In this document: positions 18,587 through 34,356 of the stretch, piece after piece
Position numbering within the stretch: the stretch's first letter is position 1
How the letters are laid out: every line of letters begins with the position of its first letter
Assembly (NCBI GenBank): GCA_016218825.1
Contig: JACRCV010000088.1
Span: forward strand, 1-40,792
Length of the DNA stretch: 40,792 nt
Direction: 5' to 3'
Origin: Deltaproteobacteria bacterium
Lineage (GTDB): Bacteria; Myxococcota; XYA12-FULL-58-9
Program-made: the position numbers and the translations under genes
Notes under the pieces: model-generated
Seen by the model: only the letters and a program-made list of their open reading frames with translations
What the model was told of the DNA's origin: nothing
Databases searched by the model: none

Positions 18587-20491
18587 ATGCGCAGATCATG
18601 CTCGAGATTGTTGCTGGTAGGTTTTGCCGGCTTGGTCGTGTTCGGACAGGGCTGTACGAGCAGCGACGACGACAGCGTCGACGCCAGCTTACCGGAGTTC
18701 AAAGGGGAACCCCTCAAGGTGGGGGCCCTGCTGTGCGTGAGTAGCGCATTCGCAGCACGGGCCCCCAACCTCGAGCGGGCCGCGCTCTTGGCCGAGGACT
18801 ACATCAACGGCAGCACGCGCGCGTTTCCGGACGTGCCCGCCGATCAGATCCCTTGCCGGGTGATCAAGAACGCCGGCGAGCAGCATGCCTGCGGCGTGTG
18901 GGTCGGGGCCGACGCCGACGGCGCCGAGATCCGGGGACCGTTGAAGATCGTGGTGGCCGACAGCGAGGATCGGGTCGACCGAGGGGTCGCGGCGGCGCGG
19001 GCGTTGGTGGAGCAGCACGGCGTCAACACCATCGTCGGTCCCTGCAACGCCGAGGTCATGCAGGCGGTCTTCGATGAGGTGACCGGGACCCAGACCGTGC
19101 TGGTTTCTCCCACCGTCACCGCCGACAGCATCTCGATGCTCGGCGACCGCACCGCCGACGACATTGCCGGCGGTCTGTCGGGTTACGTCAACCGCACCAT
19201 CACCCCCGACTACATCCAAGCGCGGATGATGGCCCTGGTGGCCGGCAACCGGGTCAAGCCGGAGCCGATGATCCGTTGGGATGACCAGCTGCCCGACGAC
19301 TGCACCGAGCAACCCTCGAGCTACTGCCGCGCGACCTACAACGATCTCGGGATCTCGGGCGGTTGCATGCCCTCCGCGCACAACGCCCTGCCGGACAAGA
19401 TCTTCTTCCGCTACTCCGAGACCGACTGCGCCAACCAGGCAGACGGCGTCAAGTTCTGCGAAGAGAAAGAGGGCAAGAACTACGAGTGCCAGACCAACCC
19501 GGACAACGGCAAGCAAGTGTGCGCGCAGTGGAAGGAACGCAAGTGGTGCACCAAGGTCGTCAAGCCGCAGACCGCGATGTTGCTGTACCAGGACCGCCCG
19601 TTTGGCCAGGGCTTGCGCAACGTGCTCGTCAACGCCTGGGAGACCCTCTACGGCATGCACGTGCTGTCGTCGTTCGCGTATGACCCGAACGAGCCCAAGA
19701 CCTTCGGCAACGCCATCACCGAGCTGTTCACCAACGGCAGCACCCGCTTCGACGAGCTGAGCGCCGCGGGCAGCATCACCGACACCACGCTGCGCTTCGC
19801 CGACTCCGTGGTCTTCCTGTTGGCGGAGGCGACCGACGGCGCTCTGCTCCTGCAGGAGTGGAGCATCCGCGCCCCGACCCTCCCGGAAGGCACCCGCGAC
19901 GTCTTCTGGGTGGCACCGGATCCGGTCCGCAACTCGCTGCTCGTCAACCAGGTGAGCTTCGACACGGTCAAGAACCTCTTCGTGACCGATCCCGGAACCC
20001 TCGACATCAACAAGACCGCGTTCTTCGACGGCTTGTGGAACAAGCGCTGGAACGTGGCCGCGGGTGACTTCGTCGGCAACGTCTTCGACGCGGTGATCCT
20101 GAGCGCTCTGGCGCAGGAACGCGGCGGCTACTGGCGCATGGCCGCGTCACCGACCACGGCCCTCGGCCCCAACGACAGCGCCTCGGTGAAGGAAGCGATG
20201 CGGGACGTCTCCGCCGGCTGTCGCAAGGTGCAGATGTCCGACACCTGCGTCGACACCGTGACCCCCTTCGGTCCGGACCTGTACGCCGACGCCGTCCGGG
20301 CGGTGCGATCGGGCCAGGCGGTGCGGCAAGGCGGGGTGACGGGCGATCTGTCCTTGAGCCCGGCGGGCGACCGCCTGGCTGACTTCGCCGTGTGGCGCGT
20401 GATTCGCTCCGAAGACACGCCGGACCGGGCGGTCTTCTTCAGACACGGCAGCCTGGTGCCCGGGGCCCAAGGGATCGGTCTCGACTACTAG
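18587..20491 (+). CDS. Large periplasmic-binding-like lipoprotein with Cys-rich insertion
   Basis: A 634-residue lipoprotein (lipobox GQGC, Cys at 23, Thr at +2). The start LKVGALLCVSSAFAARAPN and VEQHGVNTIVGPCNAEVMQAVFDE match the first lobe of type-1 binding proteins, and FVGNVFDAVILSALAQ matches the second. Residues about 225-320 are an insertion with nine or ten cysteines, probably disulfide-bonded, unlike ordinary members of the family, which have about 350-420 residues. The ATG at 18587 has AAGGAAG upstream. It lies 34 bases after the related lipoprotein gene, so the two are an operon. The ligand cannot be told from sequence. Confidence 0.75.
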   Translation: MRRSCSRLLLVGFAGLVVFGQGCTSSDDDSVDASLPEFKGEPLKVGALLCVSSAFAARAPNLERAALLAEDYINGSTRAFPDVPADQIPCRVIKNAGEQHACGVWVGADADGAEIRGPLKIVVADSEDRVDRGVAAARALVEQHGVNTIVGPCNAEVMQAVFDEVTGTQTVLVSPTVTADSISMLGDRTADDIAGGLSGYVNRTITPDYIQARMMALVAGNRVKPEPMIRWDDQLPDDCTEQPSSYCRATYNDLGISGGCMPSAHNALPDKIFFRYSETDCANQADGVKFCEEKEGKNYECQTNPDNGKQVCAQWKERKWCTKVVKPQTAMLLYQDRPFGQGLRNVLVNAWETLYGMHVLSSFAYDPNEPKTFGNAITELFTNGSTRFDELSAAGSITDTTLRFADSVVFLLAEATDGALLLQEWSIRAPTLPEGTRDVFWVAPDPVRNSLLVNQVSFDTVKNLFVTDPGTLDINKTAFFDGLWNKRWNVAAGDFVGNVFDAVILSALAQERGGYWRMAASPTTALGPNDSASVKEAMRDVSAGCRKVQMSDTCVDTVTPFGPDLYADAVRAVRSGQAVRQGGVTGDLSLSPAGDRLADFAVWRVIRSEDTPDRAVFFRHGSLVPGAQGIGLDY

Positions 20492-20571
20492 GTCTCCGCG
20501 TCGTCGATCCAGCCGCGTATGACCATGCCGCGCCGCCGTGGGGTTTCTGCTGCGGGCCGGTCCGGGTCACG

Positions 20572-20599
20572 TTGACCACACCTCGGGACTTGGTAGTAT
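20572..20599 (+). promoter_or_regulatory. Promoter giving a probable leaderless transcript
   Basis: TTGACC (20572-20577), 16 bases, TAGTAT (20594-20599). The -10 box ends eight bases before the ATG at 20608, so transcription would begin at or next to the start codon. No Shine-Dalgarno sequence precedes that ATG, which fits a leaderless mRNA. Confidence 0.45.
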
Positions 20600-20607
20600 C
20601 GGCCGCA

Positions 20608-21897
20608 ATGCCCAGTCACCCGCCGAGACCACTGCGCGCTGCCGATGATTCGAGCGCGCCTCCATCGTCACGACCGTCACCGGTGTCGAGCCAGGTGGAC
20701 CGACCCGGCACCCCGAGCAGACGCGACGCGCTCGCGGCGTCCATCGGCCTCGTTGGGCTGTTGGTCGGCGGCTGTGGCCGCCGCTTGATCGAAGGCCAGA
20801 CAGATGCCGTCACCAGTGCCTCTCCCGACGCGGTCACCGGCGCCAGCCAGGGAGGCGGGCCGCCCACGAATGTGGTCCAATTCGAGGAGGCCGCGCGCCG
20901 CCGCCTCCCGCGCAGCGTCTACGAGTACGTGCGGGGCGGCAAAGACGAGGAGGTCACGCTGCGGCGCAACCGCACCGCCTTCAACGAGCTGCAGCTCAAC
21001 CCGCGCGCCCTCAAGGACGTCCGCGCCATCGACACCACCCTGGAGCTCTTCGACGAGAAGCTGGATCTCCCCATCCTGCTCGCCCCCACCGGCTTCCACA
21101 GCTTCCTGCACAAGGACGCAGAGCTCGAGACCGCTCGCGGCGCCAACTTGAGTCGAACGCCGCTGGTAGTGAGCACCCTCAGCCACAAGAGCGTGCTGGA
21201 GATCGCCGAGGTGGCGAAAGCTCCGCTGTGGTTTCAACTGTACGCCCACGAGGACCGCGGTATCACCCGCGGCCTGGTGGAGCTGGGCGAAAGAGCGGGC
21301 TGCAAGGCCCTGGTCATCACGGTCGACAACCCCAGCCGCGGCACGGGCGCCTTCAAGAAGCGCGGCCTGACCCTGCCGATCCTCGGCAACCTGACCGCGC
21401 TCGGCGTCGACCCCAACAGCGACACCGCCAAGGCCTTCAGGACCGATCGCGCGCTCGATTGGGACGCCGTCGCCAGGATCGCCACCTGGACCAAGCTGCC
21501 CATCCTCCTCAAGGGCATCCTGGCCCCCCAGGACGCCGATCAGGCAGCCAGGTCCGGTTTTGTCGCCGGGGTGATCGTCTCCAACCACGGCGCCCGACAG
21601 GTCGACGCTCGACCGGCGACCGTCGAGGCGCTGCCCCGCGTCGTCGACTCGGTGGCCGGCAGAATTCCCCTGTTGGTCGACGGCGGCGTGCGCTACGGTA
21701 CCGACGTCGTGAAAGCCCTGGCCTTGGGCGCGCGTGCGGTTCTCATTGGCCGACCGTACCTCTGGGGGTTGAGCGTGGCCGGCGCCGACGGCATCGCCAC
21801 CATCGTCGAAACGCTGCGGGACGGCCTGGAGTTGGCGATGATGATGTGCGGCGTTACGAGCCTGCAGCAGCTCAACCGCGACGTGCTGTGGACATGA
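20608..21897 (+). CDS. Tat-exported FMN-dependent alpha-hydroxy-acid dehydrogenase/oxidase
   Basis: A 429-residue flavoenzyme of the glycolate oxidase/lactate dehydrogenase/mandelate dehydrogenase family, which oxidises L-2-hydroxy acids to 2-keto acids. The catalytic core starts near residue 88. Y105, Q210, Y212, D240, K302, H327 and R330 (in SNHGARQVD) match the FMN-binding and catalytic positions, so it should be active. Unlike most family members, it has a long N-terminus with SRRDALAAS (RR at 38-39), a hydrophobic stretch and VGGC (C56), a Tat signal with a lipobox. This predicts folded export with FMN and membrane anchoring. Whether oxygen, a quinone or a cytochrome takes the electrons is unknown. 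A DoxX-like membrane protein follows after 55 bases. Confidence 0.88.
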   Translation: MPSHPPRPLRAADDSSAPPSSRPSPVSSQVDRPGTPSRRDALAASIGLVGLLVGGCGRRLIEGQTDAVTSASPDAVTGASQGGGPPTNVVQFEEAARRRLPRSVYEYVRGGKDEEVTLRRNRTAFNELQLNPRALKDVRAIDTTLELFDEKLDLPILLAPTGFHSFLHKDAELETARGANLSRTPLVVSTLSHKSVLEIAEVAKAPLWFQLYAHEDRGITRGLVELGERAGCKALVITVDNPSRGTGAFKKRGLTLPILGNLTALGVDPNSDTAKAFRTDRALDWDAVARIATWTKLPILLKGILAPQDADQAARSGFVAGVIVSNHGARQVDARPATVEALPRVVDSVAGRIPLLVDGGVRYGTDVVKALALGARAVLIGRPYLWGLSVAGADGIATIVETLRDGLELAMMMCGVTSLQQLNRDVLWT

Positions 21898-25791: not shown

Positions 25792-26154
25792 TCACCCCGC
25801 GCGGGTAAACTTGTCGAACACCATCCCCAGCACCTGGATCGCCTCCGGCGTCATCGCCACGAACTCGAGGCCGGAGAGCGACAAGGTCGGATCCTCGGGG
25901 GTCGGATGGGTCCAGCGCACCTCGGCCTCGAGCACCAGCGGGCTGTGCGCCTCGAGCGGCGGCGGCAGCTCCACCGTGATCGTCAGGCTCCGCGCCCCGC
26001 CGAGCGACACCTTGTGCAACAGCGTCGCGCCGCGCACCCCGACCCCGACGAGCAACCCCAGATCACCCCCGTCGTGCCGGGTCGCCCGCAGCTGCACCGT
26101 CAGCTCGCGCCTGGTCCAATAGCGCTCCCGCGCCGGCAGTCCACCTTTTGCCAT
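25792..26154 (-). CDS. Small PilZ-like protein
   Basis: A 120-residue single-domain protein with a PilZ-like pattern: RERYWTRRELTVQLRA at the start (RxxxR type) and LGLLVGVGVRGATLL in place of the usual DxSxxG, then ELPPPLEAHSPLVLEAEVRW and GLEFVAMTPEA. The second motif is degenerate, so c-di-GMP binding is uncertain. The ATG at 26154 has GAGGAGGAG upstream. It lies 38 bases after the NapA-like gene on the same strand and so may be the last gene of the respiratory operon. It meets the porin-like gene tail to tail across 29 bases. Confidence 0.7.
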   Translation of the reverse strand: MAKGGLPARERYWTRRELTVQLRATRHDGGDLGLLVGVGVRGATLLHKVSLGGARSLTITVELPPPLEAHSPLVLEAEVRWTHPTPEDPTLSLSGLEFVAMTPEAIQVLGMVFDKFTRAG

Positions 26155-26192: not shown

Positions 26193-28235
26193 CTAGTCAC
26201 ACATTCTGAGTAACGCCTTGCCGCCGGCCCGGGGGAACGCCCCGTAGGGCCGATCGGGCCAGGCCGTCTCTTGCAGCATGTACCGCCGCTTGCTACCGCC
26301 CTGCAACGCCGCCGCCGCCGTCGGCGCCGGCCACTGGACGCCGCGCAGGTAGCGCAGCTGGGCGTACGGCGACCGCCCGCCGTCGCGCTCGACCGCGAGC
26401 AAACCGCTCAGGTCGGCCACGCTCCCCTTCGACGCCTGCAGCAGGTCGCGAAACACCGCCTCGGGGTCGTAGCCGTTCGCCCGGCGCGGATACGGAAAGA
26501 GCTTGGCGCCGTCCTTGGCGAGCAGCGTCGCGAGCGCCAGGCCCATGTCGATGAACAGATCCAGCTCCGGCCTGCAGTCCGCGGCCGGCGCCGCGGCGCC
26601 CGCCGCACCCGCGTCCGTGCTCGCCGGCGAAGACCCGAGGCCGTCCGCGACCATCAGCCGGCGCTCGGCGTTCACCAGCACCCCACCCGGCCACTCACCC
26701 CACAGCGCCGCGGGAAAGACGACGTCGGCGTAGTCGAGCTCCGGGCTGTCTTCATAGCCGGCGCTGGCGACGACGAAGGTGGCCGCCGGTGGCGGCCACG
26801 GATGACGAGCGCTCGCCATGCCCGTGACGGCGGTCGCGCCGGTCAGCCACAGGCCCTTCACTTGGGTCTGACCCACCCGCTCCAGAAGGCTCGGCGTCTT
26901 CGGGCCCGGCTTGCAGCCGTCGCCGCCCGCCTCGAGCCCGGCATAGAACGGCAAGCGCCCGTGCTCACCCCCGGCCAGCTGCGCCGCGAAGTCGTCGGCG
27001 CGCGCCCCGATCCACAACGGTCCGGCCCCGACCCGGCCGAGATTACCGGTGAGCAGGTGCAAGTCGAGGATCGCGGTCGCCAACGCCGAGCCCGGCGCTG
27101 CGGCGCACAGGTCGCCGTCGCACCACAACGAGACGACCCCGCCCCGACCGCGCGCCGCGGCCTTCCGCGTCGCCGCCGCCCACTCCGCCGCCACCCGGGT
27201 CGCGAGCGCGACGTCGATGCCGCCCTGCCTTCCAGACTTCGCCGGGCTGTAGCGCTCGTCGAGCGCGGCGACGTACTCCGCAAAGCCTTCGACGTGCGCC
27301 GCCAGCCACGGCTTGGCGATGACGTCCTCGTGCAGGGTGACCATTAGGTAGGCGACGTAGCCCAAGAACCGGGCCGCGCCGCCGTCGGCCTCGAGCCTCA
27401 TGCTCGACGCCGGGTCCACGGCCGCAAACGCCTCGCCGGCCCTGCCGCGCCGAGGCTCCGCCACGAAGGTCGGGATCCCGGTGCGCTTCTTGTGGTCGAG
27501 CGCGCGCCAGAACAACACCGGGTAGGCCTCGGGCGCCGTGGCCCCGAAGACGCACAGGAGATCCGCCTGTTCGACGTCCTCGTAGGTGGCACACGGCGCG
27601 GCGGCGCCGAAGGCCTCGAGGTGCGCGGCGGCGCTCGCCGGCTCGCAGCCGTTCACTTCGACCGCCGTCGAGCCGAGGACCTCGCGCATCAACCGACCCT
27701 TGACGTAGTGGGCCTCGAGCGGCAGCGGCCCACCCGCGAGCATGCCGACGGCGTCGCCGCCGTGCGCCTTGACGATCGCCGCCAGCTTCTCCGACGTCAG
27801 GCGCAGCGCCTCGGCGTAGCTCACCTCTTGCCAAACCTCGGGCCCCTTCTGACCCTTGCTCGCCGCGCCGCGCCCCGAGAGCGGGTCGCTCAGGTCCCGG
27901 CGCACCAGACAGCGGCGCAGCCGCTCGCGGCCACCGCCCGCGAACGCCGACAGGCCCCTGGCGCACAGCGCCCCGCGGTTGACGCTGCTCTGTTGATCCG
28001 GGACGGTGCCGAGGATCGTCAGGCCCTCGGCCCTGAGGTGCAGCGCGCAGCCGACGCCGCAGTGCGGGCAGGAGGCGAGGAGCGCCCGCTCCCCGGGGGC
28101 CAACACCGGCGACGCCGCCCGCGGCGCCGTCGGGTCCGGGATCGCGTCGCGCCGACAACCCGCCAGGCAGCCCGCGAGCGTCAGCCCGGAGGCGCCGGAC
28201 AGCTTGAGGAAGTCACGCCGATCAAGCTCGCGCAT
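26193..28235 (-). CDS. NapA-like molybdopterin oxidoreductase lacking the C-terminal pterin-binding domain
   Basis: A 680-residue exported protein with a Tat signal (DRRDFLKLSG, residues 5-14) and two overlapping lipoboxes (LAGC at C23 and C27). The [4Fe-4S] motif is intact (C56, C59, C63, C91). The core follows periplasmic nitrate reductase: VNGCEPASA keeps a Cys (C197) near the Mo-ligand position, and YEDVEQADLLCVFGATAPEAYPVLF and VSLWCDGD align. The NapA cofactor loop (GQPNAxGG) reads GARADDFAAQ here. The sequence ends at YGAFPRAGGKALLRMCD, exactly where NapA would begin its MopB_CT dinucleotide-binding domain. No frameshift remnant follows, since the PilZ gene starts 38 bases on. It may be an electron-transfer relative without Mo. 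The ATG at 28235 is 23 bases after the cytochrome gene. Confidence 0.82.
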   Translation of the reverse strand: MRELDRRDFLKLSGASGLTLAGCLAGCRRDAIPDPTAPRAASPVLAPGERALLASCPHCGVGCALHLRAEGLTILGTVPDQQSSVNRGALCARGLSAFAGGGRERLRRCLVRRDLSDPLSGRGAASKGQKGPEVWQEVSYAEALRLTSEKLAAIVKAHGGDAVGMLAGGPLPLEAHYVKGRLMREVLGSTAVEVNGCEPASAAAHLEAFGAAAPCATYEDVEQADLLCVFGATAPEAYPVLFWRALDHKKRTGIPTFVAEPRRGRAGEAFAAVDPASSMRLEADGGAARFLGYVAYLMVTLHEDVIAKPWLAAHVEGFAEYVAALDERYSPAKSGRQGGIDVALATRVAAEWAAATRKAAARGRGGVVSLWCDGDLCAAAPGSALATAILDLHLLTGNLGRVGAGPLWIGARADDFAAQLAGGEHGRLPFYAGLEAGGDGCKPGPKTPSLLERVGQTQVKGLWLTGATAVTGMASARHPWPPPAATFVVASAGYEDSPELDYADVVFPAALWGEWPGGVLVNAERRLMVADGLGSSPASTDAGAAGAAAPAADCRPELDLFIDMGLALATLLAKDGAKLFPYPRRANGYDPEAVFRDLLQASKGSVADLSGLLAVERDGGRSPYAQLRYLRGVQWPAPTAAAALQGGSKRRYMLQETAWPDRPYGAFPRAGGKALLRMCD

Positions 28236-28258: not shown

Positions 28259-30394
28259 TCACGGCGCCGGCTCCGCGCCCTCGGGCGCCCGGTAGCGGCG
28301 AATGTGGGTCACGAGGTCGTTGATCTCACCCGGCGTAAGCCACGCGAACGCCGATCCACCCCGCCCCCAACCCCGCATCGGCGTGCCGGCGTTACCGCGC
28401 ACGATCAGCGCCTGGATGAAGCCGTCGGCGACGACGCGCTGGAAGTCCGGGCTGTCGAACGCCGGACCGACGCCGCCTTGGCCCGTGGCCCCGTGGCACT
28501 CGGCGCAGCGCTTGACGTAGAACTCGGCGCCCCGCGCGCCGTTTCCGAACACCCGCCGGGGCATCGGCGCCTTGGGGTCCTCCGGCCGCGCCGCGCGCAG
28601 GTAGGCGATGACATCGGCCACCTCGGCGCGGCTCAAGGGCGCGATGCCGGCGGCGCCGCCAAACGGCCGCATCGGCCGCAGGCTCCGACCGGCGAGGATG
28701 GTCGCGGCGATGAACCCGTCGCTCGCGGCCGCCAAGAAGCCGGGGCTCGTGAGGCTCGGACCGGTCCCACCCAGGCCGTCCGGCCCGTGACAACCGGCGC
28801 ACAGGGCCTTGAACTTCACCGCGCCCTTCTCGGCGTTGCCGGCGGCGCGATAGGCGGCGAGCTCCGCGACCCCGAGGCTCGCCTCCACCTCCCGCACCGC
28901 GCGCGCCCTGTCCCAACCTCGAACCACCGAGCCCCCGAGCGGCCCGGCGCGAAGCGCCATCAAGACGCTGGCGATGCTCGTGGCCGGCAGGTGCGCGAAC
29001 GCCGGCATCGCGGTGTCGCCGACGCCGCGGACGATCACCTCGTAGAGCTGACGGTCCGACGCGAACGCCGCGAGCTCAGGCGCTACCAGGCTCGGCGCTA
29101 GGTCGGTGCCCGCGGCCTCCGGCCCATGACAGCCGGCGCAGTCGCGAGCCAACACCACCCACCCCGCGGCCGCGGTCGCCTGCGGCTCGAGCGCCTCGAC
29201 CGCCGCGAACGTCGCCGGCTCCGGTCGCAGACTCTCCAGGTAGGTCACGAGCGCGTCGATCTCGTCGGTCTCGAGCCCCCCGGCGTCCCGCGTCCAGCTC
29301 GGCATCGCCCGCCCGCCCCGCCCCGCCCCGATCGAGGCCGAGACGTAGCGCGTCGACGCCACCGCGAGGTAGTCACGGTTGCCGATGGCCGGCACCACGG
29401 TGGCGAGCGCCTCGATGACCTTGCCGGTGCCGTTCTCGGCGTGGCACTGGACGCAGAGCGCGCCGTACAGCCCGGCGCCGAGCGGCCGCCCCTCGGCGAG
29501 GAAGCTCTCGGCGCCCACGAGCCGCGGTCGGGGCTTCAGCTGCACCGGCACCGCCTCGGCCCGGAGAGACAGGATGTAGGTCACGAGCGCGTCGAGCTCC
29601 GCGGCCGGCCGCGCGAACTTCGGCATCTGCGAGCCCGGCGACACCTTGGCCGGATCGAGCAGGTGCTCGCGGTGCCAGGCCTCGCGCGTCGGCGCGCCGG
29701 TGACCAGGCGGAAATCCATCGCCGCCGGCGACTTGGCGCCGGCGTTGTCGAGCTCCGGGCCGACGTTGCCGCCGATGCCGCCCAGGCGGTGGCAGCCGCG
29801 ACAGCCGAGCGCGGTGAACGCCCGCTTGCCATCGAGCCACGCGCTGCCGTCGATCGGCAGCCGCGCCGCCGATCGTTCGCCGTCCGAGATCCGCACGTCG
29901 TCGCCGTGACAGAAGCCACAGCTCGCGCCCACCTGCGGCGCCGCCAGCATCGGGTCGTCCCAGAACCGCACCCGGCCATGAGCGGCGACGCTGGTCGTGG
30001 CCGCGCCCTGGCCCCGATGGCACACGGTGCACCCCATCGCGCGAACGTCGTGGGTGACCGGCGGGTGCTTGCCGAAGAGCGCCGCGTCTCCGGCGCCGCC
30101 CTCGGCGGCCGGCACGATGGCCGGCGCCGCCCCCATCCCGAGGTGGCAGCTGACACAGCGGTCCACGAGGTCGAGCTCCGGCCGCCAGATCTGGCGCAGC
30201 GCCACCGGCGCCGCCGCCTTGCCGGTCGCGCGGGCCTGACGGTTGTACTCGTCCTGGATCGCGCGCCACTCGCTCCGGTGCTCCCGGACCGCGACGAAGA
30301 GCAGCGCCGCAACCAACAACACGATCAGCGCCGCCAGCACCTTGAGGTTGCGGTACAAGAGCGCGGCGACGTCGGTGCGGCGCGTGAAGCCCAT
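28259..30394 (-). CDS. Membrane-anchored octahaem c-type cytochrome
   Basis: A 711-residue protein with an N-terminal membrane helix (about 18-37) and eight CxxCH haem sites at C80, C122, C159, C198, C314, C419, C532 and C630. The first three haems are in a compact region; the later ones sit in successive class-I cytochrome c modules with downstream Met ligands (for example GSQMPKF, DTAMPAF, GTPMRGW). It should sit in the periplasm as an electron wire. The ATG at 30394 lies one base after the stop of the cytochrome b C-terminal gene, and the NapA-like gene follows after 23 bases. The context says it carries electrons between the Rieske/cytochrome b core and the NapA-like protein, or to soluble cytochromes. 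Confidence 0.92.
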   Translation of the reverse strand: MGFTRRTDVAALLYRNLKVLAALIVLLVAALLFVAVREHRSEWRAIQDEYNRQARATGKAAAPVALRQIWRPELDLVDRCVSCHLGMGAAPAIVPAAEGGAGDAALFGKHPPVTHDVRAMGCTVCHRGQGAATTSVAAHGRVRFWDDPMLAAPQVGASCGFCHGDDVRISDGERSAARLPIDGSAWLDGKRAFTALGCRGCHRLGGIGGNVGPELDNAGAKSPAAMDFRLVTGAPTREAWHREHLLDPAKVSPGSQMPKFARPAAELDALVTYILSLRAEAVPVQLKPRPRLVGAESFLAEGRPLGAGLYGALCVQCHAENGTGKVIEALATVVPAIGNRDYLAVASTRYVSASIGAGRGGRAMPSWTRDAGGLETDEIDALVTYLESLRPEPATFAAVEALEPQATAAAGWVVLARDCAGCHGPEAAGTDLAPSLVAPELAAFASDRQLYEVIVRGVGDTAMPAFAHLPATSIASVLMALRAGPLGGSVVRGWDRARAVREVEASLGVAELAAYRAAGNAEKGAVKFKALCAGCHGPDGLGGTGPSLTSPGFLAAASDGFIAATILAGRSLRPMRPFGGAAGIAPLSRAEVADVIAYLRAARPEDPKAPMPRRVFGNGARGAEFYVKRCAECHGATGQGGVGPAFDSPDFQRVVADGFIQALIVRGNAGTPMRGWGRGGSAFAWLTPGEINDLVTHIRRYRAPEGAEPAP

Positions 30395-30395
30395 G

Positions 30396-31142
30396 TCAGT
30401 AGTAGACCCCGTCCACCCACGGCAGGGTCAAAGACCAGCTCGGGCCGCGGAAGAAGATGCCAATCATCGTCAGCGTCACGGCCACGACCACGAACCAGAC
30501 GAAGATCCAAAACGCCAGGCTGCGCGTCGACAGCCACCCCAGCACCCCCCGCTCGCCGCCGATGAGCCCCGGCAACAGCGCCAGGCCGCCGACCGCCAGG
30601 GTGGGTCCGATGATCGGCCAGACCGGCGAGGCGCCCGAGACGTAGAACAACGCCGCGACCGCGATGATCGCCGCCGTGAGCCGCACCAGCTTCTGCCGCC
30701 GGTCGGTCGCCCACAGCGGCGCCCGGGTCAGGTTGACGTTGAAGTACGGCACCACCGCCAGCGCCAGGATGGTCAGGCCCGGCAAGATGATGCCGGAGAC
30801 CAGCGGCGGGTAGTAGTGCAGCAGCTCCTGGAGCCCCAGGAAGTACCACGGCGCCTTCGCGGGGTTCGGGGTGGCGAGCGGGTTCGCGATCTCCTCGAGC
30901 GGCGCGTTGGCGAAGATCGACCAGACGACCAGGCCGAGCGTCAGAGCGACGAGGGCGATCGCCTCCCGCACCACCAGGTGCGGAAAGGTCATCACCATGT
31001 CCTCCTCGAAGACGTCCACCGCCGGACGCGCCTCTTCCTGCACCACCAGGAGCCGGCGCGGCCGCGGGTCGCTCTTGCGCCTGCCGGAACGAGCGTCGCG
31101 GATGTCCTCGCCTTTGACGAGCTCGTAGTCGCGGGGGCTCAC
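30396..31142 (-). CDS. Cytochrome b C-terminal half (subunit IV-like)
   Basis: A 248-residue membrane protein with four predicted helices and a charged N-terminal extension of about 60 residues ([12 protein letters not shown]). It corresponds to the C-terminal half of cytochrome b, as PetD does in b6f. The Qo-site motif, normally PEWY, reads APWY in [18 protein letters not shown]. The first helix starts at [12 protein letters not shown], and the end is [14 protein letters not shown]. The GTG start at 31142 overlaps the stop of the cytochrome b N-terminal gene by four bases (GTGA), which fixes the start. Together they make a split cytochrome b. Confidence 0.88.
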
Positions 31143-31927
31143 GGTGTTGGCTCCCCGTCCACGACCCGCGTCGCCCGACCCGTCGCTTCGGGCGGCAGGT
31201 AGATGCCGCCGTCCTTGCGCACCCGCCACAGGTGCACCGCGAAGAGCCCGGTGAGGACGAGCGGCAGCACCACGCAGTGCAGCACGTAGAAGCGCAGCAG
31301 GGTGTTCTCGTCGATCTGATTGCCGCCGAGCAGCAGGAACGAGATGTCACCACCGACGAGCGGCACCGCGGCGGCGAGGCTCGTGCCGATGGTCACCGCC
31401 CAATACGCCAGCTGGTCCCACGGCAGCAAATAGCCGGTGTAGCTCAGGAACACGGTGGCGACGAGCAGCAGCACCCCCAGCACCCAGTTGAACTCGCGCG
31501 GCGGCCGATAGGCGCCCGCCAAGAACACCCGCGCCATGTGCAAGAACACCGCCGCCACCATCGCGTGCGCCGCCCAGCGATGCACGTTGCGCAGGATGAC
31601 CCCGGCGGTGACGACGAACTCGAGGTCCTTGACGTCGGCGTAGGCGCGCGGCACCGACGGGTGGTAATAGAACATCACCGCGACCCCGGTCACCGTGAGG
31701 ATCACGAACAACGCCGCAGCGAGCCCGCCGAGATAGAAGGTGCGCGTGAAGCGAATGGCCTCGACGCGGACCTTCACCGGATGGACGTGGAGGAAGAGGT
31801 TGGAGAACACCGCCAGGGAGCGATTGCGGTTGGTGTCGGGAAACCCGTGGCGGACGATCGAGCGCCACACCCGTCGTCCGAAGCCCCCAGGCCGCGCCGC
31901 GGTGCTGAAGACCTCGCCGCTCACCAT
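31139..31927 (-). CDS. Cytochrome b N-terminal half (b6-like)
   Basis: A 262-residue membrane protein holding the two b haems of a Rieske/cytochrome b complex. Histidine pairs are H-x13-H (NVHRW to FLHMARVF) and H-x14-H (VLHCVV to AVHLWR); the second spacing is of b6 type. [14 protein letters not shown] is the conserved loop. The Cys that attaches the extra haem c in b6 (in FYCLGG) is missing; the protein reads TFYLGG. The ATG at 31927 overlaps the Rieske stop by one base. With the next gene it forms the quinol-oxidising membrane core. Confidence 0.92.
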
Positions 31928-32415
31928 CACACCCGCAGCACGTCGCCTTGCGGCGCCGGTTTGCGCGTGTCGACCACCAACATCCCGTCCTCGATCCCGA
32001 GCCAGCGCCGATCCAGGGCGCGCGGCGCCGGGCCGCCGAGGACGTTGCCCTGCAGATCGAAGCTGCTGCCGTGACACGGGCAGATGAAGCGCTTCTCGGC
32101 GGCGCGGTGCTGGGTCATGCAGCCGAGGTGGGTGCAGGTGGCGCTCATCGCATAGAACCCGTCGGCGCCGCGGACGATGTAGAGCTTCTGCTTCGGCATC
32201 GCGACGAGGCTGCCGATCGGGATCTCATCGGGCCTGCCGACCACGAACTTGCTCGGCGGCTCGAACAACACGTTCGGGCGCATGAAGCGCACCGCCATCA
32301 CCGCGGTGCCCGCGGCCGCAACACCGGCGGCGGCGGCGGTGAGCACCCCGAGGGCCTTGCGGCGACTGATCTCCACCACCGGGGTGTCGGCCGCTAGATC
32401 GTCCACCAGTCCCAT
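31927..32415 (-). CDS. Rieske [2Fe-2S] protein
   Basis: A 162-residue protein with the two Rieske boxes CTHLGC and CPCHGSSF, giving the Cys and His ligands and the disulfide of high-potential quinol-oxidising Rieske proteins. An N-terminal anchor (about 22-43) is preceded by EISRRKALG, a twin-arginine signal typical of Rieske proteins exported by Tat. Length is normal for b6f/bc-type subunits. The ATG at 32415 lies 18 bases after the flavoprotein stop. It would shuttle electrons from the split cytochrome b to the octahaem cytochrome. Confidence 0.95.
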
Positions 32416-32433: not shown

Positions 32434-34356
32434 CTAGAGAGACCGCTCGCACAGCGCGACCATACCGGCTTCCGCGGGGACGTAGAAGCCCTGCATGCTG
32501 ATGCAGCCCACCGGGCAACGGCGGGCGCACAGGCCGCAGCGAATACAGGCGGTCTCGTCCTTGATCAGCGCCGCGCCTACGTCGACGAGGGCGGCGAGCG
32601 GCTCGCCGTCGGCGGTCCGCAGGACGTCCTTGACGTTGTCGGCGCCGCCCACCCGCCTGAGGCTCACCAGATCGATGCACTCGACCGGACAGATGTCGGC
32701 GCAGCCGCCGCACTGGATGCACTCCGAGCCGCTCATCCGCCGCGAGTCGAAGACGGTGTTGACCCAGCAGTGCAGGCAGCGGCTCCCCTCCTGACGCGCG
32801 TCCGCCTGGCGATAGCTGGTCTCGACCTCGGTCCGCCCGGCGCGCCGGATCACCGGGATCGTCGGCGGCAGCGCGCGGTCGAGGTGCTCGTAGTCGCCGG
32901 CCGCGAAGGGGTGGCTGAAGCCGAAGGTGTCGAAGATCTTCAGGGTGACGGGCGCGGGCGCCGACTGCCGTCCGGTCAAATAGGTGTCGATCTGCAGCGC
33001 CGCCTTGCGACCGTCGGCCACCGCCTCGATCACGATCCGCGGCCCGAACGCCACGTCGCCGCCGGCAAAGACCCCCGGCCTCGAGGTGGCGAGGGTCGCC
33101 CTGTCGACCTCAATCGCCTGCTGCGGGGTCGTCGTCAGGCCGTGGCCGTCGCCGAGGAACGACAGGTCCGCGATCTGACCGATCGCGAAGATCACGCTGT
33201 CGCAGGGGATCACCTTCTCGGTCCCGGGGGCGAACACCGGCGCGAAGCGGCCGTCGGCGTCGAACACCCGCACCACGTCGAGGGTCTGGAGGCCGCGCAC
33301 CTTGCCCGCCTCGCCCAACACCGTCTTCGGGCCGCGCCGATGGATCACCGACACCCCCTCGCGTCGCCCCTCCTCGATCTCGTCGATGTCGGCCGGCATC
33401 TCCTCCAGGCTCTCCAGGCACACCATCGTCACCCGGGTGCCGGCGGTGCGCGCCGCCAAGAGCGTCGCGTCCAGCATCAGGTTGTGGTGCGGCTCGTCGG
33501 GTCGCGAGGTGCCGCCAAAACGCCGCGCGGTGCGCGCCACGTCGAAGGCGACGTTGCCACCGCCGACGACCACGACCTCGCGGCCGAGCCGGAGCGGCTT
33601 GTCGAGGTTCTGGGCCACCAGGAAATCGACCGCGGTGACCGCGCCCTCGAGCTCCATCCCCGGCAGCGCCGGGATCTTGGCGCGCCGGCAGCCAGGCGCG
33701 AGGAAGACGGCGCCGAAGTCGCGGGTCAGGTCCGCGAAGCGCAGATCACGGCCGATCTCCACCCCGAGGCGGATCTCGACCCCCAAGTGCGCGATGAACG
33801 CGATCTCGCGATCGATGAGCGACCGCGGCAGGCGGTACTCGGGGATCGCGAGCCGCATCATGCCGCCGGCGACCGGCGCGGCGTCGAACACCACGACCTG
33901 GTGGCCCATCAGCGCCAGATCGTGGGCGCACGTGAGCCCCGCCGGCCCGGCGCCGACGACCGCGACCTTGCCGCCCTGCAGCCGCGGGCGGGGACGCTCG
34001 ACCAAGCGCTCGATGTCGGCGAAGCTCCGGCCGCTCTCGACGCCGTGGCGGTCGCACACGAAGCGCTTCAGCGCCCGGATCGCGATCGGGTTGTCGATGG
34101 CGCCGCGGCGGCACGCGGCCTCGCAGGGGTGGGCGCAGATCCGGCCGCAGATCGACGCGAACGGGTTCGGCCGGCGCGCGAGCGCATAGGCCTCCTCGAA
34201 GTGGCCCTCGGCGATGAGCGCGGCGTAGGCGCCGGCGTTGGTCCCCACCGGACAGGCGGCGCGACACGGCATGTTGGCGTGCAACCAGCGGCTGTTGATG
34301 GGGCGCATCCCCGCGGTCGGATCGGCGTAGCCCAGAGGAACGGCGGCGGCGCTCAC
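32434..34356 (-). CDS. GltD-like flavoprotein with N- and C-terminal Fe-S domains
   Basis: A 640-residue cytoplasmic oxidoreductase. The N-terminus has a GltD/DPYD-type cysteine set (C31, C35, C70, C74, C78, C82) for Fe-S clusters. The FAD site is GAGPAG (135-140), and VVVGGGNVAFD marks the second nucleotide-binding domain. A C-terminal bacterial ferredoxin has two CxxCxxCxxxCP motifs (CIQCGGCADICP, CIRCGLCARRCP). This pattern suits NAD(P)H-to-ferredoxin/quinone electron transfer rather than glutamate synthase, since no GltB is present. The start is uncertain: GTG 34356 lies almost on a GGAGG, and ATG 34308 is an alternative. It heads the Rieske/cytochrome operon, so it may feed or drain electrons at its cytoplasmic face. 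Confidence 0.85.
   Translation of the reverse strand: MSAAAVPLGYADPTAGMRPINSRWLHANMPCRAACPVGTNAGAYAALIAEGHFEEAYALARRPNPFASICGRICAHPCEAACRRGAIDNPIAIRALKRFVCDRHGVESGRSFADIERLVERPRPRLQGGKVAVVGAGPAGLTCAHDLALMGHQVVVFDAAPVAGGMMRLAIPEYRLPRSLIDREIAFIAHLGVEIRLGVEIGRDLRFADLTRDFGAVFLAPGCRRAKIPALPGMELEGAVTAVDFLVAQNLDKPLRLGREVVVVGGGNVAFDVARTARRFGGTSRPDEPHHNLMLDATLLAARTAGTRVTMVCLESLEEMPADIDEIEEGRREGVSVIHRRGPKTVLGEAGKVRGLQTLDVVRVFDADGRFAPVFAPGTEKVIPCDSVIFAIGQIADLSFLGDGHGLTTTPQQAIEVDRATLATSRPGVFAGGDVAFGPRIVIEAVADGRKAALQIDTYLTGRQSAPAPVTLKIFDTFGFSHPFAAGDYEHLDRALPPTIPVIRRAGRTEVETSYRQADARQEGSRCLHCWVNTVFDSRRMSGSECIQCGGCADICPVECIDLVSLRRVGGADNVKDVLRTADGEPLAALVDVGAALIKDETACIRCGLCARRCPVGCISMQGFYVPAEAGMVALCERSL

Follow-up and report, generated by a model that had tools for sequence, protein, structure and literature searches.

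A putative molybdenum-free MopB lipoprotein of NapA/NasA descent encoded with an NAD(P)-linked Rieske/cytochrome b complex

Cofactor-free MopB subunits have so far been associated with a few old and widespread complexes, namely complex I, alternative complex III and Qrc. NuoG/Nqo3 of complex I and ActB of alternative complex III are both listed as lacking Mo/W-bisPGD, ActB being fused to an iron-sulfur subunit and positioned next to ArrA in the tree, and FhcB constitutes a further cofactor-free precedent (PMC10100899). QrcB, which is homologous to bis-PGD catalytic subunits but free of the cofactor, works in the periplasm with a multihaem cytochrome (PMC6303296).

A second group of described systems is found in Kuenenia, where the loci Kustd1480-1485 and Kuste4569-4574 each encode, within one operon, an NAD(P) oxidoreductase, a Rieske protein, a four-helix cytochrome b, a five-helix subunit IV and a hexa- or octahaem c-type cytochrome. 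These complexes are proposed to bifurcate quinol electrons between NAD(P)+ and a high-potential acceptor, and an extra octahaem protein on the positive side, Kuste4574, belongs to the complex (PMC12954380).

A literature search yielded no paper on a truncated NapA in a Rieske/cytochrome b operon. The stretch of DNA analysed here in its entirety (40,792 nucleotides; hereafter the window) carries an operon that ends in a gene of this kind. On balance, its product is best read as a NapA/NasA-type catalytic subunit that has lost Mo-bis-MGD and now serves an NAD(P)-linked Rieske/cytochrome b complex, on its periplasmic side, as a Mo-free [4Fe-4S] Tat lipoprotein; this reading is held with moderate confidence.

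The MopB-like gene and its ancestry

The gene and its downstream boundary are as follows.
26193..28235, minus strand: MopB protein of putative NapA/NasA descent lacking domain IV, 680 amino acids, from Pfam, alignment and motif reading
25792..26154, minus strand: PilZ-like gene (19.9 bits, below cut-off) with its own ribosome-binding site, marking the downstream boundary and not representing domain IV

The MopB gene begins with an ATG at 28235, preceded by the ribosome-binding site GGAGGG, and its stop codon ends at 26193; codon usage and GC3 (0.92) are like those of neighbouring genes. The N-terminus of the protein, MRELDRRDFLKLSGASGLTLAGCLAGC, contains a twin-arginine motif (DRRDFLK) followed by two tandem lipoboxes (TLAGCLAGC), in which C23 and C27 are the candidate lipidation cysteines. 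The [4Fe-4S] ligands C56, C59, C63 and C91 are complete with spacing CX2CX3CX27C, and C197 aligns with the invariant Mo-ligand cysteine of NapA/NasA. Pfam analysis identified PF04879 (39.8 bits) and PF00384, with neither PF01568 nor a Fer4 domain. When aligned, the end of the protein, FPRAGGKALLRMCD, corresponds to the last segment ahead of domain IV in full-length relatives, and the ATG of the PilZ-like gene at 26154 lies exactly 38 bases past the stop. The initial annotation, which had described a Tat signal followed by two lipoboxes, a [4Fe-4S] motif, a cysteine near the Mo-ligand position and a likeness to NapA that runs through the third domain and stops at the boundary with domain IV, was borne out in each of these points. 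If the protein lacks Mo, no role is evident for either Cys197, at the Mo-ligand position, or the penultimate Cys679 (window 28177-28155, minus strand).

The nearest families in searches with phmmer and NCBIfam were formate dehydrogenase, NasA and NapA, with no curated cut-off reached. In the tree the protein falls together with NapA and NasA proteins in a set of 14 rows with support of 99/97; its end branch is very long (3.13 changes per column), so that its exact sister is left open. An AlphaFold2 model built from a 17-row alignment was of moderate confidence (pLDDT 65, pTM 0.73), with residues 635-680 unstructured. Comparison of this model with solved structures gave NapA of D. desulfuricans (2v45) as the best fold match, with an E value of 1.8e-31 and a TM-score of 0.67 by query. 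Fold matches also included Stn/NfnABC proteins, which are Mo-free. The tree placement and the top fold match support the proposed derivation from a nitrate reductase, and the ancestry of the MopB protein thus appears to lie with NapA/NasA.

Domain IV and the cofactor site

PF01568 scored between 85 and 109 bits in all five full-length relatives tested, in the same scan that found none in the MopB protein. In a six-frame profile search of its own genome (96.5% complete), no PF01568 remnant was present in any frame of the contig, and genome-wide the only matches were to ActB (23.8 bits, below cut-off) and chance matches in a PspA-like protein and a PKS. A frameshifted or split domain IV was therefore rejected, PF01568 being absent in this search both from the contig and as a separate gene. 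The earlier statement that no frameshifted MopB_CT remnant follows the stop accordingly holds, and the separate MopB_CT protein that it had considered was not found in the genome beyond the sub-threshold ActB match. FwdB/FwdD represent a case of a split domain IV; an arrangement of this type was not seen in the same six-frame search.

Conservation was assessed against 12 full-length members of the NapA/NasA clade, which share 121 near-invariant columns. The MopB protein keeps 50 of these, while 44 are changed and 27 missing, 22 of the latter in domain IV; the N-terminal Fe-S part retains 8 of its 10. Change or deletion affects the GQPNAxGG loop and the N-KHR segment that follows it, as well as the TNP motif, the SGQ glutamine, and the conserved Asn and His beyond the GSN motif. 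The columns lost are, in L045 numbering, G380, Q381, A384, G386, R389, N406, H409 and R410, together with T452, N453, P454, Q145 and H215. Alignment and column count thus agree with the initial annotation that the GQPNAxGG cofactor loop is lost. The Lys between cluster and pterin (K85 of L045) is replaced by Arg93, a residue that occurs at this position in other molybdoenzymes. Both Cys197 and the preceding Asn195 are kept.

The supply of cofactor in the genome was considered next to these losses. The only other MopB proteins found were ActB and NuoG, the latter of 520 amino acids and also without PF01568 (L051, 7935-9497, plus strand). MobA was not found by Pfam and NCBIfam in the 96.5% complete genome, a MocA beside XdhC scoring highest against the MobA model (45 bits); other NTP_transf_3 matches were read as GlmU, NDP-sugar pyrophosphorylase, RmlA, KdsB and GlgC. 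The best match in a genus-mate, G001 (86% complete), reached 46.7 bits, whereas the family member G002 has one of 113 bits and many other relatives score 80-130 bits. This comparison is a relative one, as just 1 of 14 well-known genomes reached the curated MobA cut-off of 152 bits and not one of the 58 genomes searched did so. MobA has apparently been lost in the genus, represented by this genome and G001. Its loss fits that of all bis-MGD enzymes, to the extent allowed by a genome 96.5% complete. The genome does encode MoaC and MocA, which are explained by its four xanthine-dehydrogenase-family proteins.

Taken together, domain IV is missing without a split copy, the cofactor loops are eroded beside intact Fe-S ligands, and neither MobA nor any other bis-MGD enzyme was found in the genome. 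On these sequence grounds the loss of the pterin cofactor appears well supported, and the MopB protein is very unlikely to be a Mo-bisMGD enzyme.

The Rieske/cytochrome b operon

The MopB gene is the last of an operon in which it follows five genes, listed here in order of transcription with transmembrane (TM) segments counted from hydropathy only.
32434..34308, minus strand: GltD-like FAD/NAD(P) oxidoreductase that has Fer4_20 at its N-terminus and 2x[4Fe-4S] motifs at its C-terminus and probably starts with the ATG at 34308
31927..32415, minus strand: Rieske [2Fe-2S] protein with one TM helix
31139..31927, minus strand: b6-like cytochrome b (PF00033) with approximately 4 TM segments; NCBIfam ExtP, 261 of 290 bits, just under the cut-off
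30396..31142, minus strand: subunit IV-like protein, the C-terminal part of cytochrome b (PF00032), with approximately 5 TM segments
28259..30394, minus strand: octahaem c-type cytochrome with 8 CxxCH motifs and one N-terminal TM helix, the last-but-one gene of the operon

This composition is the same as that of Kustd1480-1485 and Kuste4569-4574: an NAD(P) oxidoreductase, a Rieske protein, a cytochrome b with 4 TM segments, a subunit IV with 5 and a multihaem cytochrome c. For the two cytochrome b genes the nearest matches are ExtP/ExtQ (261 and 54 bits), with both scores below their cut-offs. ExtP and ExtQ belong to the ext operon of Geobacter, which is associated with selenite and tellurite.

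A second GltD-Rieske-cytochrome b-cytochrome c module is present elsewhere in the genome (L155, G000:C79, 3382-13297, minus strand), where it runs directly into nosZ, nosD and a gene for an ABC-transporter ATPase; this copy is apparently tied to nitrous oxide reduction. That it continues into nosZ indicates that such modules carry partner redox proteins at the position occupied here by the MopB gene. By analogy, the MopB protein would thus be encoded where such operons place the partner of the multihaem cytochrome. In L151 and L160 (genomes G083 and G189 of the phylum), a GltD-Rieske-b-c module directly precedes genes whose sequences look cbb3-oxidase-like. The gene arrangements suggest that GltD-Rieske-b-c may be a portable module for quinol oxidation that can be combined with different terminal reductases. 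The nearest orthologues of the cytochrome b (L147, 70%; L148, 68%) lie in the gene order Rieske-b-b-c without GltD and MopB genes. Both genes are therefore accessory, and such complexes can do without the MopB protein.

Elsewhere in the window (20392-21897, plus strand), an FMN-dependent dehydrogenase of the lactate-oxidase type bears an N-terminal RR motif and a lipobox (SRRDALAASIGLVGLLVGGC), which suggests that it may be an exported flavoprotein.

Proposed role and comparison with known systems

The operon context, of which the initial annotation had made no use, is the main clue to the function of the MopB protein. From this context the role of an electron-transfer subunit is plausible, and the protein probably carries electrons or mediates docking instead of catalysing a reaction. 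It would fold in the cytoplasm, where it would be loaded with its [4Fe-4S] cluster, and then be exported by the Tat system, lipidated and anchored at the periplasmic face near the octahaem cytochrome. There it might relay electrons between this cytochrome and a soluble partner, or only shape a docking surface. By extension of the proposal for Kuenenia, the parent complex would bifurcate quinol, with the high-potential electron passing via the Rieske protein and haems c and the low-potential electron to NAD(P). Three findings count against the Mo-free lipoprotein: no orthologue was found that would show the truncated form to be conserved, the closest relatives of the complex (L147 and L148) are without the MopB and GltD genes, and Cys197 is kept though nothing would need it.

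In the main rival explanation, the MopB gene is a decaying nitrate-reductase-like gene: MobA would have been lost in the genus, leaving an orphan subunit to drift, partly deleted and functionless. The protein was found in one genome only. Among 195 genomes of the phylum, a search for close orthologues with E below 1e-22 returned only full-length paralogues. A scan of GTDB contigs with six exact octapeptides, a method that would miss diverged orthologues, returned only full-length NasA/Fdh relatives with 21-29% identity in the best segment. In a scan of plasmids all matches fell below 60% (24-29% among the matches listed), and for synteny with G001 a flanking gene was not found in a usable place. 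The very long branch, the 44 changed and 27 missing near-invariant columns, and the pattern of MobA in the genus-mate and family member are likewise in keeping with decay. However, the frame is intact and stops where one domain gives way to the next, and the gene retains its ribosome-binding site, its codon usage and its spacing within the operon. The four cluster cysteines, the Tat motif and the lipobox are also retained, with losses concentrated at the cofactor site, which argues against neutral decay, since this would not spare such features selectively. Decay is considered unlikely.

A purely structural docking subunit that transfers no electrons, like ActB1 in alternative complex III, has precedents in ActB and FhcB, in which catalysis was lost and the fold retained (PMC10100899). 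The retention here of the four [4Fe-4S] ligands and their surroundings is unlike a scaffold, and a protein without cofactor would not need Tat export, so that this alternative is less probable still than decay.

It is highly improbable that the protein is an active Mo or W enzyme holding an unusual cofactor, either a single pterin or a non-nucleotide pterin, with the aid of Cys197. The conservation of Cys197 and Asn195 would fit such an enzyme, as would the capacity of the genome to make Moco, but the protein lacks domain IV as well as both cofactor loops, and MobA was not found in the genome. To our knowledge, all solved members of the DMSO-reductase family that hold a metal have domain IV, either in the same chain or supplied as a separate subunit.

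Finally, an artefact of assembly or sequencing that deleted domain IV from a single-copy gene in a draft genome of 121 contigs with no second isolate is scarcely credible, as the gene lies inside a contig with no domain IV remnant in any frame and a neighbour with its own ribosome-binding site 38 bases on, and neither the loss of the GQPNAxGG and KHR loops inside the protein nor the missing MobA would be explained; the full-length orthologue that the initial annotation had named as a sign of such an error was not found among the 195 phylum genomes or in the GTDB pattern scan.

More tentatively, the Mo-free lipoprotein may have an undescribed, separate origin, in which a MopB subunit of the NapA/NasA lineage became a cofactor-free [4Fe-4S] lipoprotein of a Rieske/cytochrome b complex in an organism that gave up bis-MGD synthesis and whose remaining MopB proteins (NuoG, ActB and the present one) are all Mo-free; this is possible, although it is held with less confidence than the Mo-free state and location of the protein itself. 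If true, the locus would offer a young example, on the NapA/NasA branch and in a genus that has apparently lost MobA, of the conversion of a catalytic molybdoenzyme into an electron-transfer or scaffold part. A periplasmic partner would also be suggested for the NAD(P)-linked Rieske/cytochrome b complexes, which are poorly understood and whose high-potential acceptor is established in few cases.

The nearest clade and solved fold are those of NapA/NasA, with which the protein shares the Tat signal (of NapA), the [4Fe-4S] motif, domains I-III and the Mo-ligand Cys. It differs in the absence of domain IV and of the GQPNAxGG loop, in the replacement of the relay Lys by Arg93, in the added lipobox and in a genome in which no MobA was found. 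NuoG and ActB, which had been put forward as pterin-less precedents, are retained as such, and the list can be extended by FhcB, QrcB and the Stn/NfnABC proteins. NuoG/Nqo3 is likewise a cofactor-free MopB protein able to keep a [4Fe-4S] cluster, and the NuoG of this genome shares the lack of PF01568. However, NuoG is a cytoplasmic part of complex I with N-terminal [2Fe-2S]/[4Fe-4S] domains, whereas the MopB protein is a predicted Tat lipoprotein; it is not itself a NuoG, as the N-terminal 2Fe-2S and NADH-G Fe-S domains are missing and the genome encodes its own NuoG elsewhere. ActB resembles it as a cofactor-free MopB fold beside a multihaem cytochrome in a quinol-oxidising complex (PMC10100899). 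Identity with ActB was rejected on the lack of a fused Fer4 domain and of act neighbours, the genome having its own ActB elsewhere. The likeness to QrcB lies in a periplasmic, cofactor-free homologue with a multihaem cytochrome as partner. The protein is not a QrcB, with no match to NF041783 at E 0.001, no QrcC/QrcD-like genes in the operon and Rieske and cytochrome b genes as neighbours. In comparison with Kuenenia, the extra protein on the positive side is an HAO-like octahaem cytochrome in the case of Kuste4574, whereas in the present operon a MopB-derived protein would take its place.
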